Of a stretch of DNA of 64,000 nt, positions 35,211 to 64,000 are shown piece by piece. The translations under genes were made by a program, and so were the position numbers. Under the pieces are notes generated by a model that ran no database searches, was not told where the DNA came from, and saw only the letters and a program-made list of their open reading frames with translations. Numbering within the stretch: position 1 is the first letter of the stretch; the number at the start of each line of letters is the position of its first letter. Location: contig NC_019751.1 of the NCBI RefSeq assembly GCF_000317435.1, positions 3,162,001-3,226,000 on the forward strand. Direction: 5' to 3'. Source of the stretch: Calothrix sp. PCC 6303 (lineage in GTDB: Bacteria > Cyanobacteriota > Cyanobacteriia > Cyanobacteriales > Nostocaceae).

Positions 35211-35999
35211 ATGAACAATCTAAATTCAGAATCTACTCAACATAAAAGACTTAGATTTTTAAATCGTGCATCTAAAAGATTCTCAACTGGCGATACTCTA
35301 GCATTATTTACAGTTGGAACTTTCGGATTACATCTGATTACCTTCTTTCTCCTGATATTAATCTACGGTTCCTACTCACAATTGAGTAAAAAGCCACCAC
35401 CCTCTTTGGTGCAGTTGGAAACGGGAAAATCAATAAAAGTAGCACCATTGGGAAATAGCGATCGCACTCCACAAGTAGTATCACATTTTGTCTCCGACAC
35501 CATGACTTTAATGATGAATTGGTCGGGAAATTTACCACCTACCAACGTTGAAGAAAGTACAAAGCCGAAACCTGATAAGGGAATCAGTATTGGAGAGCGG
35601 GGACTCAGGGGAAATAAAGTGACATCGGCAGCATGGCAAGCATCCTACGCATTGTCAGAAGATTTTCGTAAAGAGTTTTTAAAAATGCTAGCTGACATGA
35701 CACCACCAGGAGTTTTTAAAAGTAAAACCCAAGTTGTTTTAGTCCCACTTTCAATCCAGTCACCAATAAAAATTGAAGAGGGTAAATGGAAAGTAAAAAT
35801 GATTGCCAATCTAACTATATTTGATCAGGGTAATAATTTAGGAGAAGTAATACCCTTTAATAAAGAGATATTTGTTAGAGCAGTCGAAGCTCCCGAATCT
35901 CCAGCAAATATTAATGGTTTAGCCGCCGTAATTTATCAAGTTCGTGCTAGTGGATTGGAAATTTATGCAATTCGAGATTTACCACAGGAGAATTTATAA
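35211..35999 (+). CDS. VirB8-like bitopic T4SS protein (candidate)
   Basis: The 262-residue protein has a short cytoplasmic N-terminus, one membrane segment (about residues 30-55: L-H-L-I-T-F-F-L-L-I-L-I-Y) and a periplasmic domain of ~200 residues. VirB8 and TraE proteins share this layout, and genes for VirB8, VirB9 and VirB10 often follow VirB6. The stop overlaps the next start by one base (TAATG). The family assignment is inferred. Confidence 0.5.
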   Translation: MNNLNSESTQHKRLRFLNRASKRFSTGDTLALFTVGTFGLHLITFFLLILIYGSYSQLSKKPPPSLVQLETGKSIKVAPLGNSDRTPQVVSHFVSDTMTLMMNWSGNLPPTNVEESTKPKPDKGISIGERGLRGNKVTSAAWQASYALSEDFRKEFLKMLADMTPPGVFKSKTQVVLVPLSIQSPIKIEEGKWKVKMIANLTIFDQGNNLGEVIPFNKEIFVRAVEAPESPANINGLAAVIYQVRASGLEIYAIRDLPQENL

Positions 36000-37645
36000 T
36001 GCCAGAACAGGAAACGGAAAATCATGAATTGAATGGTAATTGGGATGAAGCAAGTTTTGCAAAATTACTTGGTTTAAATGATGAGAATCAATTATCAAAC
36101 CAAACAAAACCTGTTGCTTCAGAAGAATCACCGGAAGTAGAAATAAATAGTCAAAATTTAGCTTCTAACCCAGTTGCTACTCATGAATTATTTGATGATC
36201 CCCAAGTAGGTAAAACCCAGCCGACTTTTTACGGTAATCCTTTCGCCAAATTTGGTGCAGTGGGTTTAGTAATGCTCGTTGTTTTCGGTGCTGCTGCAAC
36301 GGTTTTAAATAGTATTATGTCGGGTAAACCCAAGATTGCACCTACGATTGCTAACCAGGAAGTAGATAAGCCAAAGATAGAAATTGCTGATAATTCTCAA
36401 GCAACAGAAACAGGAAAACTTAAAGCTGAATTAGCACTCTCTACCCAAGCTGACAAAATCAAATCAGTGGAGCGTTCCAAAAGTCCTAAAACCCAGATTG
36501 TCAGACGCAATACTCAAACAATAAATCAGCGCAGCAAAACTGTATCTTCTCAGATTATTCCAAGAGAAGTACCAAGAAATCAAGTTGCTTATATACCGCG
36601 TTCAATCCCTCAAAGAGTTAGCTACAAACCTCGTAATATTCCTTATACATCGAGAAATCAACCAGTTAAAAATCAAGTAAATCCAGCATCTGTGTCTAAA
36701 TCTTTAACCAAACAGGAAAAAGATATTAACCCAATGGAGCAATGGAGGGAAATTAGCAGTTTGGGAAGTTATGGAAATGTTGAAATTGCATCTAATTCTG
36801 AATCTCTGCCAAATAATACGACTAATACCACACTTAATGAACAACAAGCACCAAGTATTCCCAGTGCTACTTTAATTTCAGTAACATCAAATTCAAATCA
36901 AATAGTTCCCACAACTAATGATTTGGAAATTGAACCACTTCATGAAGAAGAAGCTTTAATTATTGGTAATCCAGAAACACAACAATTAACAGTAGGTTCA
37001 TCTAGTTCTGGAAAATTAGTGACACCTTTAATTTGGACTAAAAATCAGCCTAATAGTGCTGCTGTTAACTCTGCCAAGCAACCACAACAAGATAAATTTA
37101 TCATTCAACTTTCTAAACCTTTAACTACCAAAGAAGGTTTGGTTATTTTGCCAAAAGCAACACAAATAATAGTTCAAGTCAAAGATATTCAGAAATCAGG
37201 ATTTGTTGAACTGGAAGCGACAGGAGCGGTAATTGATGGGAATGAATATATATTACCCGAAGGAGCGATCGCAATTCGGGGTAAATCTGGTCAACCTTTA
37301 ATAGCTTCTTCCTGGGGTAATAAAGGTGGAGAAATCGCTTCACGGGATGCGGAAACCTTTGCGGTTGGTTCGTTAGCAAAAGTTGGTAAGGTTCTCAATC
37401 AACCCAAGGAAGAACAAACCTCAACGAATAGCGGTTTCGGTGGTACAACTTCTTTCTCTTCAATTAGAAGAAATCGTTCCAATATTTTGGGAGCAGTTTT
37501 GGAAGGAGGATTTGAACCCTTAACCCAACAGATATTGCAGCGCAATCAACAAGCATTACAGGAAATTCAACGGAGAGAGGATGTTTGGTTCGTCAAAGCG
37601 GGTACTGAGGTTCAAGTGTTTGTCAATCAGACATTTCAGTTTTAA
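35999..37645 (+). CDS. VirB10/TrbI-like T4SS channel protein
   Basis: The 548-residue protein has an acidic cytoplasmic N-terminus (to about residue 85) and a single membrane segment (about residues 85-108). A long asparagine-, serine- and proline-rich periplasmic linker follows, then a C-terminal domain with F-I-I-Q-L-S-K-P-L-T, V-I-L-P-K-A-T-Q-I-I-V-Q and A-I-R-G-K-S-G-Q-P. This is the pattern of VirB10/TrbI, which spans the envelope. It is translationally coupled to the previous gene. No alternative family fits as well. Confidence 0.7.
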   Translation: MPEQETENHELNGNWDEASFAKLLGLNDENQLSNQTKPVASEESPEVEINSQNLASNPVATHELFDDPQVGKTQPTFYGNPFAKFGAVGLVMLVVFGAAATVLNSIMSGKPKIAPTIANQEVDKPKIEIADNSQATETGKLKAELALSTQADKIKSVERSKSPKTQIVRRNTQTINQRSKTVSSQIIPREVPRNQVAYIPRSIPQRVSYKPRNIPYTSRNQPVKNQVNPASVSKSLTKQEKDINPMEQWREISSLGSYGNVEIASNSESLPNNTTNTTLNEQQAPSIPSATLISVTSNSNQIVPTTNDLEIEPLHEEEALIIGNPETQQLTVGSSSSGKLVTPLIWTKNQPNSAAVNSAKQPQQDKFIIQLSKPLTTKEGLVILPKATQIIVQVKDIQKSGFVELEATGAVIDGNEYILPEGAIAIRGKSGQPLIASSWGNKGGEIASRDAETFAVGSLAKVGKVLNQPKEEQTSTNSGFGGTTSFSSIRRNRSNILGAVLEGGFEPLTQQILQRNQQALQEIQRREDVWFVKAGTEVQVFVNQTFQF

Positions 37646-40927: not shown

Positions 40928-42742
40928 ATGTCGAATTACTCGCAAACTCAGCCAGCTAATTCTAGCTTACAAATCGAGAGACTACCCAATTTAGTTAAAT
41001 CGCAATCTGGTTTGATGCTGTTAGCTTGTTTTGTTGCGATCGCCCTTTCCAAGCTAGTCTCAGAAACCAATAATAAAAGCAAAGTTGCAACAAGTTATTG
41101 GGGTGGTGGTAAAGAAAAATCAAGAGCTACATATAAGGCTAAAAAGCAAATAGCTAAACCAACTCGTAACTCGGTTGCTTTGTATATTGGAACTCCTCGT
41201 AATATGCAAATTAATCTCCAAAAACAATGGTATCGATCGGGTTTTATCAAGACCCAACCAAATAATTTCCCTCCCTTCTCTTCTGCAAACCCTACTCTAT
41301 ATGTTCCCGACGCACAAAGAGGAATAGCGGTAATTGGTGCAGCTGGTTCTGGTAAAACTTTCTCCGTAATCGACCCTTTAATCCGTAGCACATTTGACCA
41401 GGGATTCCCCATGCTACTGTACGATTTCAAATTTCCAGCACAAACCAAACGCGCTGTTGCTTATGCGATGAAGCGGGGTTACACCGTGAAGATATTTGCA
41501 CCGGGTTTTCCAGAAAGCGAAACTTGTAACCCTTTGGATTTACTACGAGATGAAGAGGATGCGATTTCCTCTGGGCAAATTACTCAAGTTATCTCCCGCA
41601 ACTTCGATAGAGGTGGAAATGCTAGTAGTGACAAGTTTTTTGAGGAAGCAGGGGATTCTTTAGTTGAGGGGATTTTACTTGTCACCAAAGCAATTAAAAC
41701 CTTAACTGGTGAGGCTAAATACTGTGACTTAATGATGGCACAGGCAATTCTATCTTTACCTAATTTAGCAGCAAGGCTGGAATTAGCATCAAAAGAAAAG
41801 CTCAAAGTTTGGACTTCTCGACCATTATCGCAGTTAATCAGTGTTAAGGATTCGGAGAAGACTGCTGCGTCAATTATTGGAACTGCACAAAGAATGTTTC
41901 AAAGATTTCTCAAACGTGATTTTGTTGGTGCATTCTGTGGGAAAACAACGCTACCACTGGATTTAGATGGGAAACAGTTAATTATTTTTGGGTTGGATAG
42001 AAACAACAGAGATATTGTCAGTCCCCTACTTGCAGCAATCCTCCACATGATTGTGACACGGAATATCACCCGGACTGTACCGCGTAGAGATCCTCTAATA
42101 GTTGCTTTGGATGAGTTACCAACATTCTATTTACCAGCACTCGTTAATTGGCTGAATGAGGGACGTGAAGATGGTTTTGTAGGGATTTTGGGGTATCAAA
42201 ATATTGCTCAGTTGGAGAAAGTATACGGTAAGGAATTAGCAAGGGCAATTCTGGGTGGTACTGCAACCAAGTTTATCTTTAATCCCCAAGATCCCGAATC
42301 AGCAAAGCTTTTCAGTGATTATTTAGGAGAGATGGAAATTAAGTTTAATTCTAAATCTCGCAGTACGGGGAAAGGGGGAGGTTCCCGCAGTAGTAATGAA
42401 CACCACCAAAAACGACATTTATTGGAACCCGCACAATTCGCCAAGATGGGAACGGGGAGAGCGGTGGTAATTAACCCAGCTTACACCCGTGGGAATGAGG
42501 CTTATGTTCCTCTGCTGCAAGCGATGAAAGTACCAAAATCTGATATTGAAGAGATGAATTGGTCAGAAAATAAGTGGGATTTTGTTAGAGAAAAATTGAT
42601 TGAATGCAATGGAATTAAAATTAGCGATGAAGAACGTTCCCAACAGTTTTTAGAACGGAGAGAATTAGCTGAAAAATTATTTCCAATGCCAGAAGATAAT
42701 AAAAATGTTCCTTCTGTCGAAGAATTAAAAAATATTTTCTAG
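40928..42742 (+). CDS. VirD4/TraG-like type IV coupling protein
   Basis: The 604-residue protein has an N-terminal membrane segment (about residues 28-45). A RecA-like ATPase domain follows, with Walker A G-A-A-G-S-G-K-T at residues 137-144 and Walker B I-V-A-L-D-E-L-P around 391-398. The later G-Y-Q-N-I-A-Q-L is the conserved Q motif of coupling proteins. It links the relaxase-bound DNA to the channel. The length is typical. Together with VirB4 it is the strongest evidence for conjugation. Confidence 0.85.
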   Translation: MSNYSQTQPANSSLQIERLPNLVKSQSGLMLLACFVAIALSKLVSETNNKSKVATSYWGGGKEKSRATYKAKKQIAKPTRNSVALYIGTPRNMQINLQKQWYRSGFIKTQPNNFPPFSSANPTLYVPDAQRGIAVIGAAGSGKTFSVIDPLIRSTFDQGFPMLLYDFKFPAQTKRAVAYAMKRGYTVKIFAPGFPESETCNPLDLLRDEEDAISSGQITQVISRNFDRGGNASSDKFFEEAGDSLVEGILLVTKAIKTLTGEAKYCDLMMAQAILSLPNLAARLELASKEKLKVWTSRPLSQLISVKDSEKTAASIIGTAQRMFQRFLKRDFVGAFCGKTTLPLDLDGKQLIIFGLDRNNRDIVSPLLAAILHMIVTRNITRTVPRRDPLIVALDELPTFYLPALVNWLNEGREDGFVGILGYQNIAQLEKVYGKELARAILGGTATKFIFNPQDPESAKLFSDYLGEMEIKFNSKSRSTGKGGGSRSSNEHHQKRHLLEPAQFAKMGTGRAVVINPAYTRGNEAYVPLLQAMKVPKSDIEEMNWSENKWDFVREKLIECNGIKISDEERSQQFLERRELAEKLFPMPEDNKNVPSVEELKNIF

Positions 42743-53154: not shown

Positions 53155-54762
53155 TCATCTTCCAGAAAACTGCTTTGCATTGAGCGAAGATACTACAACT
53201 TGTTTGGTTGCGTGGGGTAGAAGTTGTTTGGCTTTAGTAAAACTTTGTTCGGATGGAATTGCGACGATGACTTTGGGTATGGTTTTGAGTAGTTGTAAGG
53301 GTAATGGTGCGCGATCGTCATCCCAGACGAGATAGATTGTTCGCTGCTGGTGGGGTGCGTTTTGGGAGATTGCGTGCAGTGCATCGATGGGAGAAGAAAC
53401 TAAAATAGCGATTTGTGGTGATTTTGTATTACCACCTCCGACGCTCAAATGGAACCAACCCTTTGAACGTCTGCTTTCTGGGTACATCTGAAGTTGCTTT
53501 TTGTCTTTTGAGACTAATAAATAAGCTCCTGTTCTTTCTCCATCTAGGTTGCGAGCGATAAATACTCCGTTCCCAGCATCATCTGCATATATCAAATCTC
53601 TTTTTCGTAAGGTCTGTGAGAGTTGAGATGGAATTAAATATTGTTGCCTCAAATAATTTTCTAATTCTTGCCAATGGGAAGGACAACTGGAAGGTGGAAT
53701 GAATGGTTTTGGTAACTTCTGCTCAATAATGTTTACAGCTTGGCTAATTGCATGATTATGAACAGCTTGCAAAACTGGGGTTTCGTCGAAGCGATCGCAT
53801 AACCAAACCACCGCATCATTAAAATTACAACCGTTTGTTTGCATGACCAAATCAAGCGCATCAGCATGAAATTGCTTGCTGGGATTGATTCCAAGTTCAT
53901 AAGCGATCGCTTCCAATGATAAATCTTGTTTTGCATCGACGGCTTTTAATATCTCTAGCTCCCGTTCTAGTCTCTGTCGTAACTCTTCACTTCTGGACGC
54001 TGTTTCTTTCCACTCCGCTCTTTGTTGGAGAATGCGATCGCGCTCCGAAAGTTGACAATTTATTATCTCCAATTGGGGATTCAATAGCTCAATAAGCCTT
54101 TGTCTATACTTTTCACTGCTTTCTTGTGGTTCTGGTTGGGGAATAATCTTTCCCCAGTCGAGAATCTGAGAACTTTGGTTAACGGCAGAATAATACTTTC
54201 TAACTTTCTCGTGGGTTGCCACACTTCCCTTGACACCACGGACAATTCCCAAATGTGCAACAGCAGCAACAAAGCTATCCTGCAACTCGTACATTTTTAC
54301 TCTAGTCCCAAACAGAGCTTTGCAATTGAGTTTTCCCCGTTCATCCAAAGGTACGAGATAAGCGTGGATATGGGGTGTAATTTCATCTAGATGTAACTCT
54401 GCTTGAACAATGCGATCGCCCCAAGATTTATGCAGCCATTTTACAGCCGCATCAACGAAATTATCTAAACGCTGTTGCTCATAAATCCCACCTTCGTGCG
54501 GAGCATGGGGACGGAAATATTCTGGACTCGCACTCAACAACATTTCCACCGCTAACACTGCGTCAGAGCGAATTTTTTGCGAGCCGATTTTTTCCCGCAC
54601 CAAAGTTTCTAAGCCAAGATTTGTATTATTTCCAATTAATTCTAAATTTTTTATTTCCGGGTTGGCATTAGGTGTATCAACCAGTCGAAGTGTATGCGCT
54701 TGGCTACGACTCAGAGTTCCCCAGGATTTTATTTTCTGGATGCGACAAATTGCAAAAGCCAT
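53155..54762 (-). CDS. MobV-type relaxase with a Toprim-like C-terminus
   Basis: The 535-residue protein starts with a MobV (Mob_Pre) domain. The metal-binding and catalytic motif H-L-D-E-I-T-P-H-I-H is at residues 124-133, followed by L-V-P-L-D-E-R-G-K. The middle has a coiled, charged region. The C-terminal ~200 residues show a DUF3991-like part (L-I-Y-A-D-D-A-G-N-G-V-F) and a Toprim-like part (I-A-I-L-V-S-S-P-I-D-A-L and I-Y-L-V-W-D-D-D). MobV relaxases nick oriT and lead DNA into the channel. A MobV with Toprim suggests a link to priming after transfer. Confidence 0.85.
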   Translation of the reverse strand: MAFAICRIQKIKSWGTLSRSQAHTLRLVDTPNANPEIKNLELIGNNTNLGLETLVREKIGSQKIRSDAVLAVEMLLSASPEYFRPHAPHEGGIYEQQRLDNFVDAAVKWLHKSWGDRIVQAELHLDEITPHIHAYLVPLDERGKLNCKALFGTRVKMYELQDSFVAAVAHLGIVRGVKGSVATHEKVRKYYSAVNQSSQILDWGKIIPQPEPQESSEKYRQRLIELLNPQLEIINCQLSERDRILQQRAEWKETASRSEELRQRLERELEILKAVDAKQDLSLEAIAYELGINPSKQFHADALDLVMQTNGCNFNDAVVWLCDRFDETPVLQAVHNHAISQAVNIIEQKLPKPFIPPSSCPSHWQELENYLRQQYLIPSQLSQTLRKRDLIYADDAGNGVFIARNLDGERTGAYLLVSKDKKQLQMYPESRRSKGWFHLSVGGGNTKSPQIAILVSSPIDALHAISQNAPHQQRTIYLVWDDDRAPLPLQLLKTIPKVIVAIPSEQSFTKAKQLLPHATKQVVVSSLNAKQFSGR

Positions 54763-55358: not shown

Positions 55359-55514
55359 ATGTTTCACACATCAAGTATGCTTATCGGAAAAATAACCATA
55401 CAACAACTATTGTTCGAGAATCAAGAACTATCTCTAAATTCAAATTATTCCTCGGCTATTTTTATATTTTCAGCCATGAATACAGGAAAAAGGTGTAGTG
55501 TGTTTCACCGATGA
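55359..55514 (+). CDS. Possible small protein with a good ribosome binding site
   Basis: ATG 55359 is preceded by AAGGAG at a good distance. The 51-residue product (M-F-H-T-S-S-M-L-I-G-K) has one hydrophobic stretch and no recognised family. The good ribosome binding site is the main support. Confidence 0.35.
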   Translation: MFHTSSMLIGKITIQQLLFENQELSLNSNYSSAIFIFSAMNTGKRCSVFHR

Positions 55515-55821: not shown

Positions 55822-56943
55822 ATGGGTAAAATGACTCAACGCAGAAAGAAATCTTCCCCAGAATTAATTTTAGCTTTGGACTTTGGGGGAAGTGTAACCA
55901 AAGGAGTTTATTCCACCCTCGATATGATGATTACCAAATCGTTGCTGATGGAACCGGAGGTGGTGAAAATTTCTCCAGATTCAACAATTGCTGAAACTCT
56001 AGGAGCAACAGACCCAGAAAATGCTGCATGGATAAGCTACATGGGTCAAACCTTAGCTGTAGGGTATTTGGCAAAAACTAAGTATTATGGCAACGAAGGA
56101 TTGAAGGAACTCAAATACGAGCGTGCAGTAGCCAAAACCTTGGCTGCGATTTGGGTGACATCACAAAAACTGAAATTGGGTGCAAAATTTCGAGTTGCAT
56201 TGGTTTGTTTGTTACCACCGGGGGAATTCGAGAACAAGGAGAGTTTTCACCAGCAACTAAAAGCCGCACTAAAAGACTTCACCACACCTACGGGGAGAAT
56301 GTGTGTGGAATTATCCGAATTTAATTGTTTACCTGAAGGTGCGGGAATTTATTTGGCTTACCAGAAACAGCAAGGAAAAACCATCACCACAAAAGCAATT
56401 GCATTTGTCATGTTGGGTTACAGGAATGCATCGGTGTTGATTGCAGAAAGGGGAATCATTGCCGCAGATGGGAAAACTTCTGATTTGGGAATGATTCGAC
56501 TGTTAGAAAAAGTTGTAGCGAGAACTTCGGGACAAACTGCTTCACGACTTGCTCCTGCGGTGGTTGCTGCTGGAAGTGATATCTCTGGTACTCCATTTTT
56601 ACGCTTACTCAGGAGTACGAGCAATATCAACAAACAGCAAGAATTAATCCAAATTCAACAAGCTGTCAAACTTGCTAGAAACGAATATGCTGCCGTACTC
56701 ACAAGTTGGTTAGACCAAGTAATTTCCCGCAATCAAATTACGGAAATTCTATTTTGTGGTGGAACGGCAGATTATATGAGAAGGGAATTAAATTCCCATT
56801 ATCCCGGAATACTTTGTTTGTGGGGAGTTGGTGCAGATATTCCCTTACAGCTCGATTGCTTTGGTCTAGGAAGTCGATTGGCTGATGTTTACAGTGTATT
56901 TTTGTACTTTTGGGAAAAAGTAAATTATGGGCGAACAAATTGA
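55822..56943 (+). CDS. ParM/actin-like ATPase
   Basis: The 373-residue protein has the actin/Hsp70-fold ATPase motifs. Phosphate 1 is L-D-F-G-G-S-V-T-K-G at residues 19-28, phosphate 2 is around F-V-M-L-G-Y-R-N-A-S, and the adenosine motif is E-I-L-F-C-G-G-T-A-D-Y. Such proteins (ParM, AlfA) form filaments that separate plasmid copies. The gene overlaps a small downstream gene that could encode the ParR adaptor. Plasmid segregation is the most likely role. Confidence 0.75.
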   Translation: MGKMTQRRKKSSPELILALDFGGSVTKGVYSTLDMMITKSLLMEPEVVKISPDSTIAETLGATDPENAAWISYMGQTLAVGYLAKTKYYGNEGLKELKYERAVAKTLAAIWVTSQKLKLGAKFRVALVCLLPPGEFENKESFHQQLKAALKDFTTPTGRMCVELSEFNCLPEGAGIYLAYQKQQGKTITTKAIAFVMLGYRNASVLIAERGIIAADGKTSDLGMIRLLEKVVARTSGQTASRLAPAVVAAGSDISGTPFLRLLRSTSNINKQQELIQIQQAVKLARNEYAAVLTSWLDQVISRNQITEILFCGGTADYMRRELNSHYPGILCLWGVGADIPLQLDCFGLGSRLADVYSVFLYFWEKVNYGRTN

Positions 56944-57322
56944 TTTTCGCTGGCGTTATCAGCCACGTAAGGAAGCAGATATAAAGTTGATGGAATATAT
57001 CCAATCTAATCCGATTCGAGCAAAAAGTGAAATTATACTTGTTGCAATTCGTTCTTTTTGGTTGCCCCATGCGATTACCACAAATTCAGGTGATAAAAAA
57101 CAGATTCAATCTATAGCTAGAAGTTGTATACAAGTATTAAAGAGACAGGCTCAAGAAATTGGAGAATTAGCAGGATTAGAAGATTCTTACGGGATATTTA
57201 CAACCCATCATGGTGGAAGTAAATCAATATTAGAAATATTGCCTAATACATCAGGGAAATCAGTAGGCGAACTCTCGGAGAATTGTGTTTACGATGATGG
57301 CGGATTGAGTAATTTTTTGTAA
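56927..57322 (+). CDS. Possible ParR-like DNA-binding partner
   Basis: The 131-residue protein overlaps the 3' end of the ParM-like gene by 17 bases. Its N-terminal part, D-F-R-W-R-Y then K-E-A-D-I-K-L-M-E-Y-I and R-A-K-S-E-I-I-L-V-A-I-R, reads like a ribbon-helix-helix followed by a helix, as in ParR adaptors. The C-terminal part is acidic. The assignment rests mainly on order and overlap. Confidence 0.5.
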   Translation: MGEQIDFRWRYQPRKEADIKLMEYIQSNPIRAKSEIILVAIRSFWLPHAITTNSGDKKQIQSIARSCIQVLKRQAQEIGELAGLEDSYGIFTTHHGGSKSILEILPNTSGKSVGELSENCVYDDGGLSNFL

Positions 57323-57364
57323 TTTCCAATTTGACATATCAAGGGATTGAGGGAGATAAATCAG

Positions 57365-58420
57365 ATGAGAAAGAGAAGAGATAAAAAGACCAACAACTCC
57401 TTATTAGATAGCAGACAGGTAAATCAGAATGTTGTTATTGATGATCGGAATAAACTTGATATAGGAAAAGACAAATTACCAATAAATACGGAAATAACAA
57501 ATTGGCAACAAGAAATAGATAGAAATACAATTAATTCTCAATTAGCAAATAGTACAGTATCTAGTAAAGCAATGACACAACCAACAATTGATGATTGGCA
57601 ACAAGAGATTGATGGAAATATTTTACCAAAAGATGCATTAGAAGGAGGTGAAATAAATGGAAATCAGCAACTTTCGCAACCAAGATTAGAAAATAACTTC
57701 CCTGTTTTCAAAACGAATAAATCTAAAAAGCCAACCACAATCCACATTATCGATGGGGAAAAAGGAGGATGCGGTAAATCTTTTATTTGTCGAGCTTTTA
57801 TCGAATACTGTAATTCAACGGCTCGTGACATGATGATTATCGATGCGGATATAAGTAACCGAGATATAGAGAAAATTTACCCGAATGTGGAGATGGCTTT
57901 CTTTAGTGATGATGAGAAACAAGCTTATGAGGCAGATAAAATTTTTGATTTTGCCTTTGATAAATCCGTGCTAGTTAACTTACCTGCTCAAGTATATGGC
58001 AATGTAACAAACTGGATACAACGCAATGATTTAGTAAATTTAGGTAAGGATAATTCCATCAATTTTATCAAATGGTTTGTTGCGACTGGTGGTGTCGATT
58101 CTGTTAATTTCTTTCTCAAATCTTTAGATGATTTTGGCAATGATATTACCCATGTATTTGTTAAGAATTATGGCTTGTGCGATAACTGGGAATACGTGGA
58201 GACAATGCCTGAATTTGTCGATGCGGCTCAGAAATATAACTTTTATGCGATCGATTTTCCCAAATTCCCTTTTTGGGAGCGCAATACCATCGACCGTTTA
58301 GAAATCACATTTACGGATGCAATTTTGCGTCCAGAACTCAAGATAGTATCGAAGCAGAGAGTCAAAAATTTCCTCCAGTTTGCCTACAAAGCTTTTGCAA
58401 AAACGGGTTTAATTGAATGA
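57365..58420 (+). CDS. ParA/MinD-like ATPase
   Basis: I start at ATG 57365, which has a GAGG-like site upstream. The 351-residue protein has a basic, low-complexity N-terminus with two copies of W-Q-Q-E-I-D. From about residue 120 it has a P-loop ATPase with a deviant Walker A (G-E-K-G-G-C-G-K-S at 131-139) and D-M-M-I-I-D-A-D. This is the ParA/MinD family pattern. The N-terminal extension is unusual. It may act with the ParM system or form a separate partition or transfer-positioning system. Confidence 0.7.
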   Translation: MRKRRDKKTNNSLLDSRQVNQNVVIDDRNKLDIGKDKLPINTEITNWQQEIDRNTINSQLANSTVSSKAMTQPTIDDWQQEIDGNILPKDALEGGEINGNQQLSQPRLENNFPVFKTNKSKKPTTIHIIDGEKGGCGKSFICRAFIEYCNSTARDMMIIDADISNRDIEKIYPNVEMAFFSDDEKQAYEADKIFDFAFDKSVLVNLPAQVYGNVTNWIQRNDLVNLGKDNSINFIKWFVATGGVDSVNFFLKSLDDFGNDITHVFVKNYGLCDNWEYVETMPEFVDAAQKYNFYAIDFPKFPFWERNTIDRLEITFTDAILRPELKIVSKQRVKNFLQFAYKAFAKTGLIE

Positions 58421-59094
58421 ATAAACCTCAAACCCCTGATGATTTATTGGCTGAAGCATTGAGGGGAAAGAGTGAAGATTTTAAACGTCGGGTTTTAGAT
58501 TTCGTTTCAAAAACTGGACTGTCTCAGGATGACCCATTATTTTTAGTTTTGGTTGCTACCGGACAATTGGAAGTGATGTTGTCAGATGCACCGCAGACTT
58601 TACAACTGCTGTTTCAAACATGGAACCAAGATTTAGCCCATAATTTAGAGCAAGTTGAACAAGTTGCGATCGCACGTCAAAAAGTCGCTATTAATCGCGC
58701 GGCACAAGAGCTAATTCACGAATCCTTGTTACGTGAAGGTCGAAATATTATTAACTCAGTCTTTCCGGCTACTGTTGTCTTCTTTTTCATCTTTGCGATC
58801 GGTTTCATCGCGGGTGTGTCGATTCCTCCTTGGTTGAATGGGGTCTTGTCTGGGGGATATACCAAAATTCAAGCCAATACCCTGACATGGGATGAATTAT
58901 CAGCAATGAAATGGGCTGCATCCAGTGAAGGGAAATTTGCCAGAGACTTGATGAATTGGAATCGCGGGTATTTGGAAAACAGGGAATGCATCAAAGATGT
59001 TCAACGATTAGGTGTGGTTTTATCCCAATACAATCGCAAAGCAAAGTCAGGATTTTGTCTTGTTTGGGTGACTCCACCGGATAAACGGAAATAA
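58417..59094 (+). CDS. Hypothetical membrane protein coupled to the ParA-like gene
   Basis: The 225-residue protein overlaps the ParA-like stop (ATGA). It has one strong membrane segment (about residues 114-136: V-F-P-A-T-V-V-F-F-F-I-F-A-I-G-F) between two soluble helical parts. Coupling suggests a membrane partner for the ParA-like ATPase. I do not recognise the family by name. Confidence 0.6.
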   Translation: MNKPQTPDDLLAEALRGKSEDFKRRVLDFVSKTGLSQDDPLFLVLVATGQLEVMLSDAPQTLQLLFQTWNQDLAHNLEQVEQVAIARQKVAINRAAQELIHESLLREGRNIINSVFPATVVFFFIFAIGFIAGVSIPPWLNGVLSGGYTKIQANTLTWDELSAMKWAASSEGKFARDLMNWNRGYLENRECIKDVQRLGVVLSQYNRKAKSGFCLVWVTPPDKRK

Positions 59095-59115
59095 AATACG
59101 AAAGGTAAATTGTAT

Positions 59116-60282
59116 ATGGTTGCCACTACAATCTATCCACCACCTCAAACTCATCTTGATAATTTGGTGGATGCGACAACTTCAATTTTAGAACAAGCAT
59201 TTGCGATCGCATCCCAAAAGCAAGAACTCTCTCACCAAGAATACAAGAGTTTGCTGAGTACAATTGGTTGGAGTTTACGTGAAAGTAAAATCTATTTGAA
59301 GGTTGCTACAGCGTTTTCCAATTTTACAGCCAATGATTTGAAAGAAGTTGAACCACATACAATTTTTGAATTGGCTAAACATGCAAAAAAATATAGCCAA
59401 GTTATCGAAAGCTTGAAAAATTACAGTCATATTACCCAAGAGAAAGTGCGCGAATTAATTTCAGCCCACCGCACCCCCACGAAACCAAAGCCAGATAAGC
59501 CAACGATTTGGAAAACAGGTAAGGATGGTGAACCTGTCTGTCGAATTCCCGACATCATGGAAGAAGATATGCAAACTGGTGGCATTATCCAACAAGAAAT
59601 GGATGCAAATGGCACTTTTCCCCAAACCGTAATTCGGCAAGCGATCGCATTATGGAATGATGTCAGACAAGGAAAGTTATCTATTGTCGAGAATGAGGTG
59701 AAGCAAGAGGGTGATAATGATGTAAATAAAAATTATGAGCGAGATAATACCGATGGGGATAATGCTCAAAATATGTGTGATTCAAATACTTTAATCGCAG
59801 CTAATTCCACTTCGGAAGGATTGGATATTTTGGGAAATCATCATCCTGCGATGACCACAATATATGCAGATTACAATCAGACACTCAATGGCTCACACCC
59901 TGAAAATTTAGCAAAAGTTGATGTTATCCCAGAAGAAGCTAATCATCCCCAAGAATTTATCTCAAATATCACCGTTATATCCGACTTACCAACAGCAAAT
60001 GATTTAATTAACCTGGAAAATCAGTATGTATTGCCAACATCGGAACAGGGAAAAATAGAGCAACATCTGCAAATAGACGGGGATGAAATTAAGGAAATTG
60101 CGCTCAACGTTGATGACATGGTTATTTGGGAGAAATGCCCACCTCAATATCAGTGCTGGCAACCATTCCAAATCCGAGAAATCGAAGGCAATATGGTCAA
60201 ATTAGATTTACTTAGCTACTTAATCCCGATTGATGAATTAACCAAATCACCAGACGAAGATGTAGAAATTGATAAAGGATAA
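59116..60282 (+). CDS. Hypothetical plasmid protein
   Basis: I use ATG 59116 (M-V-A-T-T-I-Y-P-P), which has GAAAGG upstream. The 388-residue soluble protein has an N-terminal helical domain of ~140 residues (L-L-S-T-I-G-W-S-L-R-E-S), an asparagine-rich acidic middle, and a C-terminal compact part (V-I-W-E-K-C-P-P-Q-Y-Q-C-W-Q). It could bind DNA through its helical N-terminus, but no motif proves this. Confidence 0.6.
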   Translation: MVATTIYPPPQTHLDNLVDATTSILEQAFAIASQKQELSHQEYKSLLSTIGWSLRESKIYLKVATAFSNFTANDLKEVEPHTIFELAKHAKKYSQVIESLKNYSHITQEKVRELISAHRTPTKPKPDKPTIWKTGKDGEPVCRIPDIMEEDMQTGGIIQQEMDANGTFPQTVIRQAIALWNDVRQGKLSIVENEVKQEGDNDVNKNYERDNTDGDNAQNMCDSNTLIAANSTSEGLDILGNHHPAMTTIYADYNQTLNGSHPENLAKVDVIPEEANHPQEFISNITVISDLPTANDLINLENQYVLPTSEQGKIEQHLQIDGDEIKEIALNVDDMVIWEKCPPQYQCWQPFQIREIEGNMVKLDLLSYLIPIDELTKSPDEDVEIDKG

Positions 60283-60328: not shown

Positions 60329-60541
60329 TCAAAAAGGAATACCTTCCGAATAATCAACAGGATTATCCGGAATCATTTGTTCAATTTGGGCAAGTTCTAT
60401 TTTCCATTCTTCTTCTGAAGGGTCATAGAAATCATCGTAATTAGCATAACCTTCGCTGAGAAGTTCATCAACAGTCATTGATGAAACTATTTGGTATCGG
60501 CTTGTTGCTGGCTGAGGTTTTGTTATGGGTTCAGATGACAT
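60329..60541 (-). CDS. Small acidic hypothetical protein
   Basis: The 70-residue protein is highly acidic (D-D-F-Y-D-P-S-E-E-E-W) with a helix I-E-L-A-Q-I-E-Q-M-I. Small acidic proteins like this can be antitoxins or DNA mimics; nothing more can be said. It lies between two rightward genes on the opposite strand. Confidence 0.55.
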   Translation of the reverse strand: MSSEPITKPQPATSRYQIVSSMTVDELLSEGYANYDDFYDPSEEEWKIELAQIEQMIPDNPVDYSEGIPF

Positions 60542-60710: not shown

Positions 60711-63700
60711 ATGGTATTACGACTGAATCACTTCGATACCAAAACCAAACAAGAAACGGGAATAGAAGAAAAACTCGAAAATACCTTGGCTGAATATCTC
60801 TTTCCTGATGTTGAGTTTAGTATTGGTACTGCTTACCCAGAAGCAACTATCCCCGAAGATTTACATGAATATAACGGCAAAACCCTACAATTTAGTGCAG
60901 GGAAAAGAATGTTTTTTGCCAGCGATTCCACTATTCGAGAGCAACTATATCCAAATCCATCTGATGGTGCTGCCTATCCCTTACCTTTTACACCTTGTCG
61001 TAGTTTTCACGAACTAGAAAATGTCAGGATTTTGGTTGTCGATGATGTGACTGGGGAGAATGGAGGTATCATTGCCAATGCGGATGCGAGAAAATTAGTT
61101 GGAGATTGCAAGGGATTAATCGATCGCAGTTTCGCACTTTCTAATAATATAGATAGGCGTGCATTTCAGTTCCGACTTGGTATTAAACCCCAAGTTGAAA
61201 GTCGAGTTATGCGGATTGCGAAGGGTACACTTGCTCCCACGCAACTCGAAAGGCTTGGGGAATCAAGTTTTCGTATGGGTGGGAATGTTAGAGATGGCAC
61301 CTTACGCACGAAATTTGGTTACGATTTAATATTGGCAACATCTTCGTTCAAAGGCAGGAAGGGAGATGATGCAATAAAACCTGGGGAATATTTGCTCTCA
61401 ATTGGATTAGGTGTAAAAGCATTGGCTTTGTATCGAGAACATAGTTTGGGAACCCAGATTTTAGTAAATTACCCTTCATCCGTAAACAATGAAATCTTAC
61501 CCATAATTAAACAGCAAGCCGAACAATTAGCTGGCGACCAAAAAGATATTAGAAAATTAGCCCAGCGATATATAGAAACCTACGAACGACGCAAAGCTGT
61601 ACTAGCAAAAAACCAGGAAATTGAGCCGAATTTACAAGCAGATATTGATAAATTTACTATCTTTGATAATTTAGATTCTGGCGGAGAAATTGAGGACGTT
61701 CGAGAAAGCGATAATCTAACCCTATCTCAAAAAGATTTACTGCTATATTCCTTAATCAAAACCGATTTAGCTAATTATTGTCAATTGCTAGAACATCCAA
61801 AAATAGTTGCCGAACTCCAGGATTTTGCCAGAAAACAATGGGTTGAAATTGCTACGGGACGTTCAATTAAGTTTACCTCCGGACTAGCACAACCTAGTTT
61901 GGATTTGCAGCATGATGAAATATGCATACCTTTTTTGAGGGAAGGGGAAGAAATAATTGTCACTCGTTCCCCGTTGATTAATTCCAATGGGGTAATTACT
62001 TTGAAAAATAAGCATTTACCAGAAATGTTAGATGGCTGTGTTTATATTCACCCTCAAACTGCTATGGATAATATGCAGTGCGACTTTGATGGTGATTTAT
62101 TGGCTTTTGCACCCAGTCGAGATTTTCCCCACCTTGCTGCGGAAGTGAAAGAGCGGAATTTACCAGAAAATCGCTATCCCAACATTATCAAGAAGGATAA
62201 AGTGGCATATCAAGGTAGTTTCGAGCAAATAGCCATCTCGGCAATGGAGAATAAAATTGGCATTATCGCCAACGAAATCCAGAAGAATATAGCCCTGCAA
62301 TGCGAACTTTGTGCGATGCCTCAATCGGAAAAAATGGATGATTTGAAACAGATATCTCAACATTTTGCTCGGATATTACAGAAGCAGCAACAAGGAAAAT
62401 TACAAATTTCAGAGAGGATATTGGGAGAAATTAAACAAGTTATCTCTACAAATCCAAGTAATACAGCAGAAATAGAACATAAACTACACCAAGTAAAAGC
62501 CATATTCAAAGATTGCGTAGCCTCTCTTGGGAACGAACTACAAGTAGCGGCAGATGGAGCAAAAAGTGCCCTGCGTCCCAATGATGAAATTATTAAATAT
62601 TGCCAAGCAATTACCAGTTACAAAGAAGTTGAATGGCTAACTGATAAGAAAAAGCCCGAAGCTTTTACCAATCGAGGGATGAAAATAAATGGTTACAGCC
62701 CCATTGATTTAATGATTCGGCAAACGAACGAAATATTTGAGCAAAATCAAATTACGGCAAGACCAATCGAACAATTTAGAAAGCTTTATCCGGGAATTGA
62801 ATTTAGCTCGGAGCAAAGACAAATTGCCCAACAAATCAAACACCAGTATAACTTCAAGATTCGGAAACGCATTCAACTGGAGGAACAACAAAAAGTTGAA
62901 CCTGGACCATATTTAACTATTACCTCTCCCATTAGTGGAAATAAATTAAAAATCACTAATTTAATAAAATTTCCTGCGGCGATAAATACCGATTTTTGGT
63001 GTTCGCAATACTTGGATATCCGTGTGGAAGCGAGAAAACCAACATCACAAATGCCCCATAACCTACTTGTATTTGCAAAGTTTACGAATAACACAAAAGT
63101 GATAAATATTCCGATTGGTACAGTTAGCAGTGACTCGGTTAAGGAACATAATGTTAACCCAGGAATGACAATTAAACAAGGAAAAGTCGAGTTTCATTTC
63201 GGTATTAGTGATGGGATGATTGATGCTTTAAAACAACAAACTAGGGAATACATTGAGTCGATTAGCGAAGAAACACCCTTGGAAGATAAACTACAACTCG
63301 CAGCTGCTATACATGATGTTAGCCACACTGGAGAGAGTAAAAACTATTCTGGTTTGAAGAGAGCGGGGGTTGCATTTGCTGTTTTCCCAGAAGAAGCGAT
63401 ACCTTCGGTAAACTTCGTTAACGCTCAACTCCAAAACCTGCAATTTACGGAAATGCGGGTAGTTGGGACTCAGTTTAATGAGTGTGCTGGTAGGGATTTT
63501 GTCGGGGACAAGGTTGCAGTGAAATTTGAGGATGGGGTAAATCCCCGTGAACCGACTAAAACAGCACGTTGGGTGACGGTGGAGGGGAAAAAGTTGGGGA
63601 TTATTGATGCGCGATCGCCTCATTTGCTTCCTGGCTGTGAAGCTGTTGCAAGTATTACCTCTCCTTCCAGTACCAGCGTTATTGTTACCAGTTTGAGAAA

Positions 63701-64000
63701 TCCTGAAAATAAAATTCAAATTGACCAAATTAATCGATACGCTTTCGCTAATCGCAACTGGCAGGGTGAGCAAACGAATATTACTCTCGATATGCAGCGA
63801 ACTGATTCCAGAAAAGCACCTATCGTTTTTGCAAAACTTGGAAATCAGGTTTTGGGTATTTTGAATAAAGAATCCGTTGGTTTTTTACAAAAACAGCTTG
63901 CCAGTAAGGGGAGGTCAATACAAGGATTGACTATTGTGGGGACTGTGAATAAAGCTCCTCCCAGTTACGCGGATATTATCATTGACCCCAGTAGTGTTAA
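60711..64000 (+). CDS. Single-chain RNA polymerase-like protein (beta-prime DPBB signature), 3' end outside the window
   Basis: From ATG 60711 the frame is open to the right edge: 1096 complete codons with no stop. Residues 417-424 read V-T-R-S-P-L-I-N. Residues 444-462 read V-Y-I-H-P-Q-T-A-M-D-N-M-Q-C-D-F-D-G-D. In the beta-prime subunit of multisubunit RNA polymerases, R-x-P precedes the catalytic N-A-D-F-D-G-D by about 35 residues; here the distance is 39. The three aspartates that hold the catalytic magnesium are 458, 460 and 462. Further upstream, S-S-F-K-G-R-K-G-D-D (211-220) may be the lysine-bearing counterpart in a beta-like barrel. A single chain with both barrels would resemble YonO and QDE-1-type polymerases. 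The beginning is preceded by STRR-like CACTGCC repeats and no clear ribosome binding site. A dispersed repeat at 63394-63424 is read in frame. Confidence 0.75.
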   Translation, partial: MVLRLNHFDTKTKQETGIEEKLENTLAEYLFPDVEFSIGTAYPEATIPEDLHEYNGKTLQFSAGKRMFFASDSTIREQLYPNPSDGAAYPLPFTPCRSFHELENVRILVVDDVTGENGGIIANADARKLVGDCKGLIDRSFALSNNIDRRAFQFRLGIKPQVESRVMRIAKGTLAPTQLERLGESSFRMGGNVRDGTLRTKFGYDLILATSSFKGRKGDDAIKPGEYLLSIGLGVKALALYREHSLGTQILVNYPSSVNNEILPIIKQQAEQLAGDQKDIRKLAQRYIETYERRKAVLAKNQEIEPNLQADIDKFTIFDNLDSGGEIEDVRESDNLTLSQKDLLLYSLIKTDLANYCQLLEHPKIVAELQDFARKQWVEIATGRSIKFTSGLAQPSLDLQHDEICIPFLREGEEIIVTRSPLINSNGVITLKNKHLPEMLDGCVYIHPQTAMDNMQCDFDGDLLAFAPSRDFPHLAAEVKERNLPENRYPNIIKKDKVAYQGSFEQIAISAMENKIGIIANEIQKNIALQCELCAMPQSEKMDDLKQISQHFARILQKQQQGKLQISERILGEIKQVISTNPSNTAEIEHKLHQVKAIFKDCVASLGNELQVAADGAKSALRPNDEIIKYCQAITSYKEVEWLTDKKKPEAFTNRGMKINGYSPIDLMIRQTNEIFEQNQITARPIEQFRKLYPGIEFSSEQRQIAQQIKHQYNFKIRKRIQLEEQQKVEPGPYLTITSPISGNKLKITNLIKFPAAINTDFWCSQYLDIRVEARKPTSQMPHNLLVFAKFTNNTKVINIPIGTVSSDSVKEHNVNPGMTIKQGKVEFHFGISDGMIDALKQQTREYIESISEETPLEDKLQLAAAIHDVSHTGESKNYSGLKRAGVAFAVFPEEAIPSVNFVNAQLQNLQFTEMRVVGTQFNECAGRDFVGDKVAVKFEDGVNPREPTKTARWVTVEGKKLGIIDARSPHLLPGCEAVASITSPSSTSVIVTSLRNPENKIQIDQINRYAFANRNWQGEQTNITLDMQRTDSRKAPIVFAKLGNQVLGILNKESVGFLQKQLASKGRSIQGLTIVGTVNKAPPSYADIIIDPSSV
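63394..63424. repeat. Dispersed repeat inside the polymerase-like gene, in frame
   Basis: GAAGCGATACCTTCGGTAAA followed by CTTCGTTAACG. It is translated as E-A-I-P-S-V-N-F-V-N and resembles the copy at 55577. Confidence 0.7.

Follow-up and report, generated by a model that had tools for sequence, protein, structure and literature searches.

A gene at the right-hand end of a 64-kb stretch of the Calothrix sp. PCC 6303 genome encodes what we consider, with moderate confidence, to be a single-chain, two-barrel RNA polymerase, belonging to the clade of YonO, the phage non-virion polymerases and QDE-1/RDR2, and transcribing the DNA of the apparently conjugative element that carries it. The stretch, called the window here, comprises 64,000 nucleotides (C3:3162001–3226000, in a host genome of 6.96 Mb and four contigs). 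An earlier note on its letters had proposed a single-chain polymerase of the beta/beta-prime superfamily, and that proposal is now supported by structure prediction, fold search, a YonO profile, profile–profile alignment and the conservation of catalytic residues. The reading frame starts with an ATG at 60711 on the forward strand and is open through the window's end at 64000, giving 1096 residues; followed along the same contig, it reaches its stop, and the gene ends about 466 bases past the window. The full protein, referred to as the window protein, has 1251 residues, in keeping with the earlier expectation of more than 1096.

Predicted architecture of the window protein

The motifs that first raised the suspicion of a polymerase stand in the translated frame at the positions reported, R419-S420-P421 and C457-D458-F459-D460-G461-D462, as does the lysine-bearing segment placed some 240 residues upstream (S211-S-F-K-G-R-K-G-D-D220). 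The lysine of that segment, K214, lies 244 residues before D458 and proved to be conserved, and a second conserved lysine of the first barrel, K171, came to light beyond the one then suspected.

An AlphaFold2 model of the 1096 residues within the window, computed with 42 sequences, had a mean predicted local distance difference test score of 79.9 and contained a double-psi barrel around residues 400–470, the region on which the earlier note had staked its case. In a Foldseek comparison with the PDB the top 21 rows were chains of RDR2, QDE-1, ‘P74 gp62’, ‘P32 gp64’ and crAss gp66 (E 3e-10 to 6e-6); plant Pol IV appeared lower, from 3e-5, and bacterial beta-prime lower still, from 4e-4. TM-scores by target length were modest, 0.12 to 0.49 across these 21 rows. 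VIA matched the model to maize RDR2 with Z 17.1 (root-mean-square deviation, rmsd, 10.2 over 566), to Arabidopsis RDR2 with Z 15.8 (rmsd 4.0 over 471), to P74 gp62 with Z 15.7 (rmsd 3.6 over 436, model residues 23–682 aligned) and to QDE-1 with Z 14.2 (rmsd 3.8 over 492, model residues 1–682 on chain residues 489–1183). Among predicted viral proteins, the top named rows of the fold search included a podovirus ‘RNA dependent RNA polymerase’ and P23-45 A7XX94. Because RDR2, QDE-1 and phage polymerases lead the matches of both Foldseek and VIA, the modelled architecture is taken to be that of a single chain with two barrels, the lysine barrel preceding the aspartate barrel. The first, beta-like barrel contains Q153, R155, K171, S211 and K214 in the model; the second, beta-prime-like barrel carries RSP and DFDGD. 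A conserved D615-x-x-K618 directly follows a long helix (residues 585–614), a pattern that fits a bridge helix, and this segment is likely the bridge helix of the predicted enzyme, a name given from its order and motif (compare D625/K628 of YonO).

Past this core the protein is predicted to continue as strand-rich domains and then, beyond the window, a Rossmann-like domain. The corresponding extension was modelled in one relative, L037, whose last 554 residues had a best Foldseek E of 1.1e-3. In VIA, residues 289–399 of that extension model matched five HLTF HIRAN entries (Z 6.0–6.3), four of them titled DNA- or single-stranded-DNA-bound, and residues 408–546 matched Rossmann-like chains (Z up to 8.4), among which Card1 (7.9) and Can2 (6.8) were mixed with glycosyltransferases, dehydrogenases and ubiquitin-activating enzymes. 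HIRAN was absent from the ten Pfam families listed for the 25 family members scanned; the HIRAN-like and Rossmann/CARF-like likeness of this extension (L037:12071–13732) is weak and structural, with no support in sequence.

Relation to YonO and to cellular polymerases

A profile of the YonO family, built from five members taken from phage records only, found a single match (E 4e-7, spanning the RSP–DFDGD stretch) when run over 388 genomes of the class, and this match was an orthologue 69% identical to the window protein. Profile–profile alignment in hhalign paired the 42-row family of the window protein with the YonO family at probability 94.6 (E 7e-8, 136 columns), with RSP falling on RSP and DFDGD on DNDGD, compared with probability 0.1 for an unrelated control, a ParM-like family. 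Together these two results bear out the kinship with YonO suggested by the earlier note. The invariant residues of YonO (R266, K271, S313, K316, R492, P494, D535, D537, D539, D625 and K628) have counterparts in the same order in the window protein (R155, K171, S211, K214, R419, P421, D458, D460, D462, D615 and K618); since the hhalign alignment did not extend as far as the first barrel, the pairing of residues there follows from order and position in the barrel.

That the gene is no housekeeping rpoC, as had also been argued, agrees with the behaviour of the Pfam beta-prime barrel PF00623, which found no match in the window protein at E up to 1 and, across the host genome, picked rpoC1 alone, elsewhere on the contig. 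A divergent copy of rpoC was ruled out on the same two counts. The hhalign comparison with host rpoC1, though low-scoring, puts RSP on RAP and DFDGD on DFDGD. Among phage protein families, PHROG 34895, which has no assigned function, matches the window protein (E 2e-14).

Conservation and loss of catalytic residues

K171, K214, R419, P421, D458, D460, D462, D615 and K618 were invariant in 12/12 rows of a first alignment (ten relatives and both copies from this genome, the others being 24–74% identical to the window protein) and in 42/42 rows of a second, which used 41 of the 81 relative loci fetched. Both alignments exclude two degenerate relatives, which were already known when the 12-row set was picked. 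This pair is included in a wider alignment of the 107 related frames of at least 650 amino acids (13 of 120 were shorter and were dropped), where P421 was kept in 107 frames, Q153 and D462 in 106 each, R419, D458 and D460 in 105 each, R155, K171 and K214 in 104 each, and D615 and K618 in 103 each. The two degenerate frames, L027 and L028, which come from one genus, jointly lack R155, K171, K214, R419, D458, D460, D615 and K618, and one of them has lost D462 also; all other departures come from gaps in the frames L100, L029 and L116. Such a joint loss of residues more than 400 positions apart is as one shared active site predicts.

The degenerate relatives still have frames open over 927 and 953 codons. 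Their shared setting differs from the plasmid backbone described below, with an FHA-like protein and a protein kinase-like protein (both read from sequence) adjoining, and the pair may perhaps represent a host-adopted pseudo-polymerase. The intact polymerase gene is under purifying selection, the ratio of nonsynonymous to synonymous divergence (dN/dS) being about 0.14–0.18 in three intact gene pairs (0.169/1.235, 0.118/0.651 and 0.100/0.590). Distant relatives (L053–L116) reach about 2400 amino acids, and one example of 2249 amino acids is without a Pfam domain at E 0.01.

A conserved place in a conjugative backbone

The genes near it serve plasmid maintenance and transfer, as the earlier note had read them: MobV, ParM-like, ParA-like and DUF6753 genes stand upstream, and coupling protein and TrbI genes lie 18–25 kb to the left of the polymerase gene (Table 1). 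With a relaxase, a coupling protein, a secretion channel gene and a nick-like site present, the element reads as conjugative, of the MobV type.

Table 1. Features of the window and of related loci. Positions are window coordinates except where a locus is named; barrel boundaries are approximate.
Feature	Position	Strand	Basis or remark
TrbI/VirB10-like secretion protein	35999..37645	+	E 7.5e-11
Type IV coupling protein	40928..42742	+	TrwB_AAD_bind, E 4e-28
MobV (Mob_Pre) relaxase	53155..54762	-	Pfam, E 1e-28
Putative MobV origin of transfer, AAGGTGTAGTGTG/TTTCACC	55490..55509	+	Nick expected between 55502 and 55503
ParM-like actin (ALP_N)	55822..56943	+	Pfam, E 4e-6
131-residue protein between ParM-like and ParA-like genes	56927..57322	+	
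ParA-like Walker ATPase	57347..58420	+	GEKGGCGKS, read from sequence; no Pfam match
DUF6753 protein	58417..59094	+	Pfam PF20538, E 3e-104
390-residue protein	59110..60282	+	No Pfam family; phmmer finds it near few, closely related copies
Conserved 70-residue gene, divergent from polymerase gene	60329..60541	-	
Single-chain two-barrel RNA polymerase-like protein, residues 1–1096 of 1251	60711..64000	+	Open reading frame, AlphaFold, fold search, YonO profile
First double-psi barrel (DPBB-B, beta-like), about residues 98–245	61002..61445	+	Model strand/helix order, QDE-1 alignment, conservation
Second double-psi barrel (DPBB-A, beta-prime-like), about residues 387–468	61869..62114	+	Model strands, hhalign to YonO family, conservation
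RSP of DPBB-A	61965-61973	+	
DFDGD of DPBB-A	62082-62096	+	
Long helix 585–614 and D615-x-x-K618, likely bridge-helix segment	62463..62564	+	Model helix, conservation
Post-core extension, residues 734–1096 and on to 1251	62910..63998	+	Models of window protein and L037 relative; weak fold matches
Catalytically degenerate relatives, two genomes of one genus	L127:9703-12474; L128:8724-11501	+; -	

This arrangement recurs. A contig scan for relatives yielded 140 loci, of which the best 80 were kept, and neighbourhoods were counted in the 50 of these with at least 9 kb upstream. A ParM-like gene was found upstream of the polymerase in 45/50 loci (11/11 close relatives and 34/39 others) and a relaxase in 30/50 (11 close, 19 others), one of the 39 ‘other’ loci (L050) being a truncated close relative. 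The polymerase gene holds a conserved place in a conjugative plasmid backbone. The MobV relaxase of the window also has a C-terminal DUF3991 match (E 7.5e-4), which falls below the Pfam curated cut-off.

A second copy of the gene, 74% identical and with the same flanking gene order, lies at C3:427 kb in the same genome. The backbone is duplicated and diverged on one 6.77-Mb contig (C3:427–440 kb, L004, and window 50–64 kb), and the window copy is nearer to that of Calothrix sp. NIES-4101 (dS 0.65) than to the copy at C3:427–440 kb (dS 1.24). In an alignment of 13 copies little was conserved just upstream of the polymerase gene except the stretch of the divergent 70-residue gene.

A putative origin of transfer

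The 1059-base gap between the relaxase and the ParM-like gene contains AAGGTGTAGTGTGTTTCACC, the sole match in 64 kb to the pattern of a MobV origin of transfer (oriT) at up to three mismatches; none appeared in 100 shuffles, and the motif is conspicuous in an alignment with eight other elements. At the same tolerance and in one orientation, the pattern was present in 9/13 close relatives with a MobV–ALP gap and in 0/21 distant ones, and it therefore speaks for the close group alone; in L037 and L039 the oriT cores are altered. Among close cyanobacterial elements, GGTGTAGTGTG/TTTCACC appears as a conserved MobV-type nick-site motif.

MobM, the prototype of the MobV relaxases, cuts 5'-TAGTGTG/TTA-3' (PMC5090054). 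Were the putative site cut in the same way, the strand led 5' first would carry the ParM-like, ParA-like and DUF6753 genes, followed by the polymerase; the relaxase would come last, and the polymerase side of the putative oriT would be the first to enter a recipient.

Distribution of relatives

Relatives were detected in 76/388 genomes of the class by single-sequence search and in 83/388, about a fifth, with the 12-row profile. Among plasmid records, 88 carried relatives (38 typed conjugative, 16 mobilizable and 34 non-mobilizable), and all of the ten organism names read, out of 24, were cyanobacterial. The relative HG267_RS37850 of Tolypothrix PCC 7601 is on a plasmid typed mobilizable, near mobV, a gene annotated ParM/StbA at the ParM-like position, a gene annotated CobQ (ParA-like by position) and DUF6753; AVA_RS28855 of Trichormus variabilis ATCC 29413 is on a plasmid typed conjugative, near ParM/StbA and relaxase genes. 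Both relatives are annotated ‘hypothetical protein’.

Viruses contributed little. The phage records held no match to the window protein and none to the IMG/VR relative; two scans of viral contigs recovered a single relative in one and no relative in the other. A member of a more distant subgroup matched 13 phage records weakly, 11 of the 13 sharing one contig name.

Proposed function and alternatives

We infer that the window protein synthesises RNA with the element's own DNA as template, in the service of element gene expression and apart from the host polymerase. In such an enzyme D458, D460 and D462 of the second barrel would hold the catalytic magnesium, with R419 and P421 beside them, and K171 and K214 of the first would bind the incoming nucleotide, the two barrels facing each other on one chain; the helix with D615/K618 would follow the second barrel as a bridge. 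The RNA made on element DNA would then serve partition, transfer or establishment after entry, independently of the host polymerase. As to template, transcription of element genes is our first choice, priming on single-stranded DNA the second and RNA copying the third. The earlier note had put forward the transcription of incoming DNA, escape from host control and priming as possible roles, and each of these is still a conjecture.

Several results weigh against this reading. No polymerase family in Pfam or NCBIfam matches the window protein, and sequence searches of the PDB with the single sequence and two profiles found no polymerase, just two unrelated matches (E 0.19 and 0.43). Across the 388 genomes, both copies of the window genome and the other relatives fail the YonO profile at E 0.001, the hhalign match to YonO is restricted to about 136 columns of the second barrel, and that to host rpoC1, used as a single sequence, has probability 4 (E 0.01). 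The equivalence of the lysines with those of QDE-1 rests on order, conservation and barrel position, and QDE-1 itself accepts RNA as well as DNA templates (PMC2950127). Finally, of the exact words of 7–10 bases counted upstream of element genes in 11 elements, none recurred clearly beyond shuffled expectation (the top 7-mer, which is A/T-rich, occurred in seven elements against a maximum of six in 20 shuffles, and longer words did no better than shuffles), so that nothing points to a dedicated promoter.

Other readings of the same protein place its activity elsewhere. It could be a primase, a two-barrel polymerase that primes single-stranded element DNA with RNA, either in replication or when the second strand is made in a recipient after conjugation; we give this a minority chance, though an appreciable one. 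The gene lies in the maintenance and transfer backbone beside a relaxase and a putative oriT, on the side predicted to enter first, the extension is weakly HIRAN-like (the HLTF entries above), and transferred primases are known on conjugative elements (PMC5512222), whereas single-chain relatives of known activity are, in the literature examined, transcriptases or silencing polymerases, and HIRAN was missing from the Pfam families listed for the 25 members. An RNA-dependent RNA polymerase in the manner of QDE-1 and RDR2, turning transcripts into double-stranded RNA as a means of regulation or of countering host defence, is improbable. RDR2 and QDE-1 are the best fold matches, and two relatives match a phage family named for that activity (E 2e-5 and 1.5e-4), but the name is an annotation, not a test; YonO, which belongs to this clade, has a strong preference for DNA as template (PMC5467207), and no silencing gene was seen in two annotated neighbourhoods or among the Pfam-scanned window proteins, no search having been aimed at one.

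It is very improbable that the fold has no polymerase activity and serves a structural or regulatory role. The degenerate pair, having lost its active-site residues and kept its open frames, indicates that the scaffold can persist without an active site, but that pair stands in a different gene setting, and 105 of the 107 frames, that of the window protein included, retain D458 and D460. That DFDGD and RSP are chance motifs in an unrelated fold is scarcely credible: no family library calls the window protein a polymerase, but Foldseek, VIA, the YonO profile, hhalign and residue conservation all contradict the idea, which was rejected on these grounds.

A further step, which we regard as speculative and rather unlikely, is that cyanobacterial conjugative elements keep a leading-region RNA polymerase, which transcribes or primes incoming DNA so that the element, while it becomes established, need not rely on the host polymerase. 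The gene would lie with the partition genes on the first-entering side of oriT, and the enzyme would perhaps be carried over or made at once. Bacterial plasmids would then have a transcription enzyme reserved for their life cycle, as phages have in virion polymerases.

The kind of enzyme is already known, as YonO and as ‘phage and plasmid’ polymerases. According to PMC5467207, cyanobacteria possess YonO-like proteins; PMC7598289 mentions ‘likely mobile elements’ of cyanobacteria, and PMC10770324 names a clade of single-subunit polymerases from phages and plasmids. The passages found in a literature search contained no description of this branch, its extension, its place in the backbone, its degenerate relatives or the transfer-origin polarity; an earlier mention of the family is possible. 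Among the forms of the enzyme responsible for transcribing all cellular genes, single-chain two-barrel polymerases are the simplest, and those characterised from the bacterial world come, in the literature examined, from phages. If the window protein is active, it would show that private polymerases are kept by plasmids as well as by phages and would cast new light on gene expression and establishment in large cyanobacterial plasmids. The history of RNA polymerases and eukaryotic silencing polymerases would also gain a diverse branch that includes catalytically degenerate relatives.

Comparison with known systems

YonO of the Bacillus phage SPbeta shares with the window protein its single chain, the order of its motifs (K-G, S-x-x-K, R-S-P, D-x-D-G-D and D-x-x-K) and the profile match over the second barrel. 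Experiments show it to be a strictly DNA-dependent RNA polymerase that cannot do without its aspartate triad (PMC5467207). It has 839 amino acids and is encoded by a phage, whereas the window protein has 1251 (with relatives to about 2400), a long extension, and a setting on a conjugative plasmid backbone beside partition and relaxase genes.

QDE-1 and RDR2 are the best fold matches (Z 14–17). The active site of QDE-1 is described as having invariant Q736, K743 and K767 and catalytic D1007, D1009 and D1011 (PMC1750930), matched in order by Q153, K171, K214, D458, D460 and D462 of the window protein; the first three of these fall inside the first barrel of the model, the pairing being by order. 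Neither enzyme was matched by sequence in the PDB searches, in contrast, and no silencing gene is named nearby.

The non-virion RNA polymerases P23-45 gp64 and P74-26 gp62 are phage single-chain two-barrel enzymes whose likeness to the model is seen in VIA matches to 8f5m (‘P74 gp62’, Z 15.7) and 8f72 (titled ‘P32 gp64’, Z 15.7, rmsd 4.0 over 438), although their PDB chains are of about 590 residues, without a long extension. The crAss-like phage phi14:2 gp66 (PDB 6vr4, Foldseek E 6e-6) is likewise described as single-chain and two-barrelled (PMC10770324), but has 2166 residues and is, by its title, virion-packaged. With the cellular beta-prime subunit (rpoC1) the window protein has the DFDGD barrel in common, whereas PF00623 misses it, and its predicted beta-like and beta-prime-like barrels share one chain.

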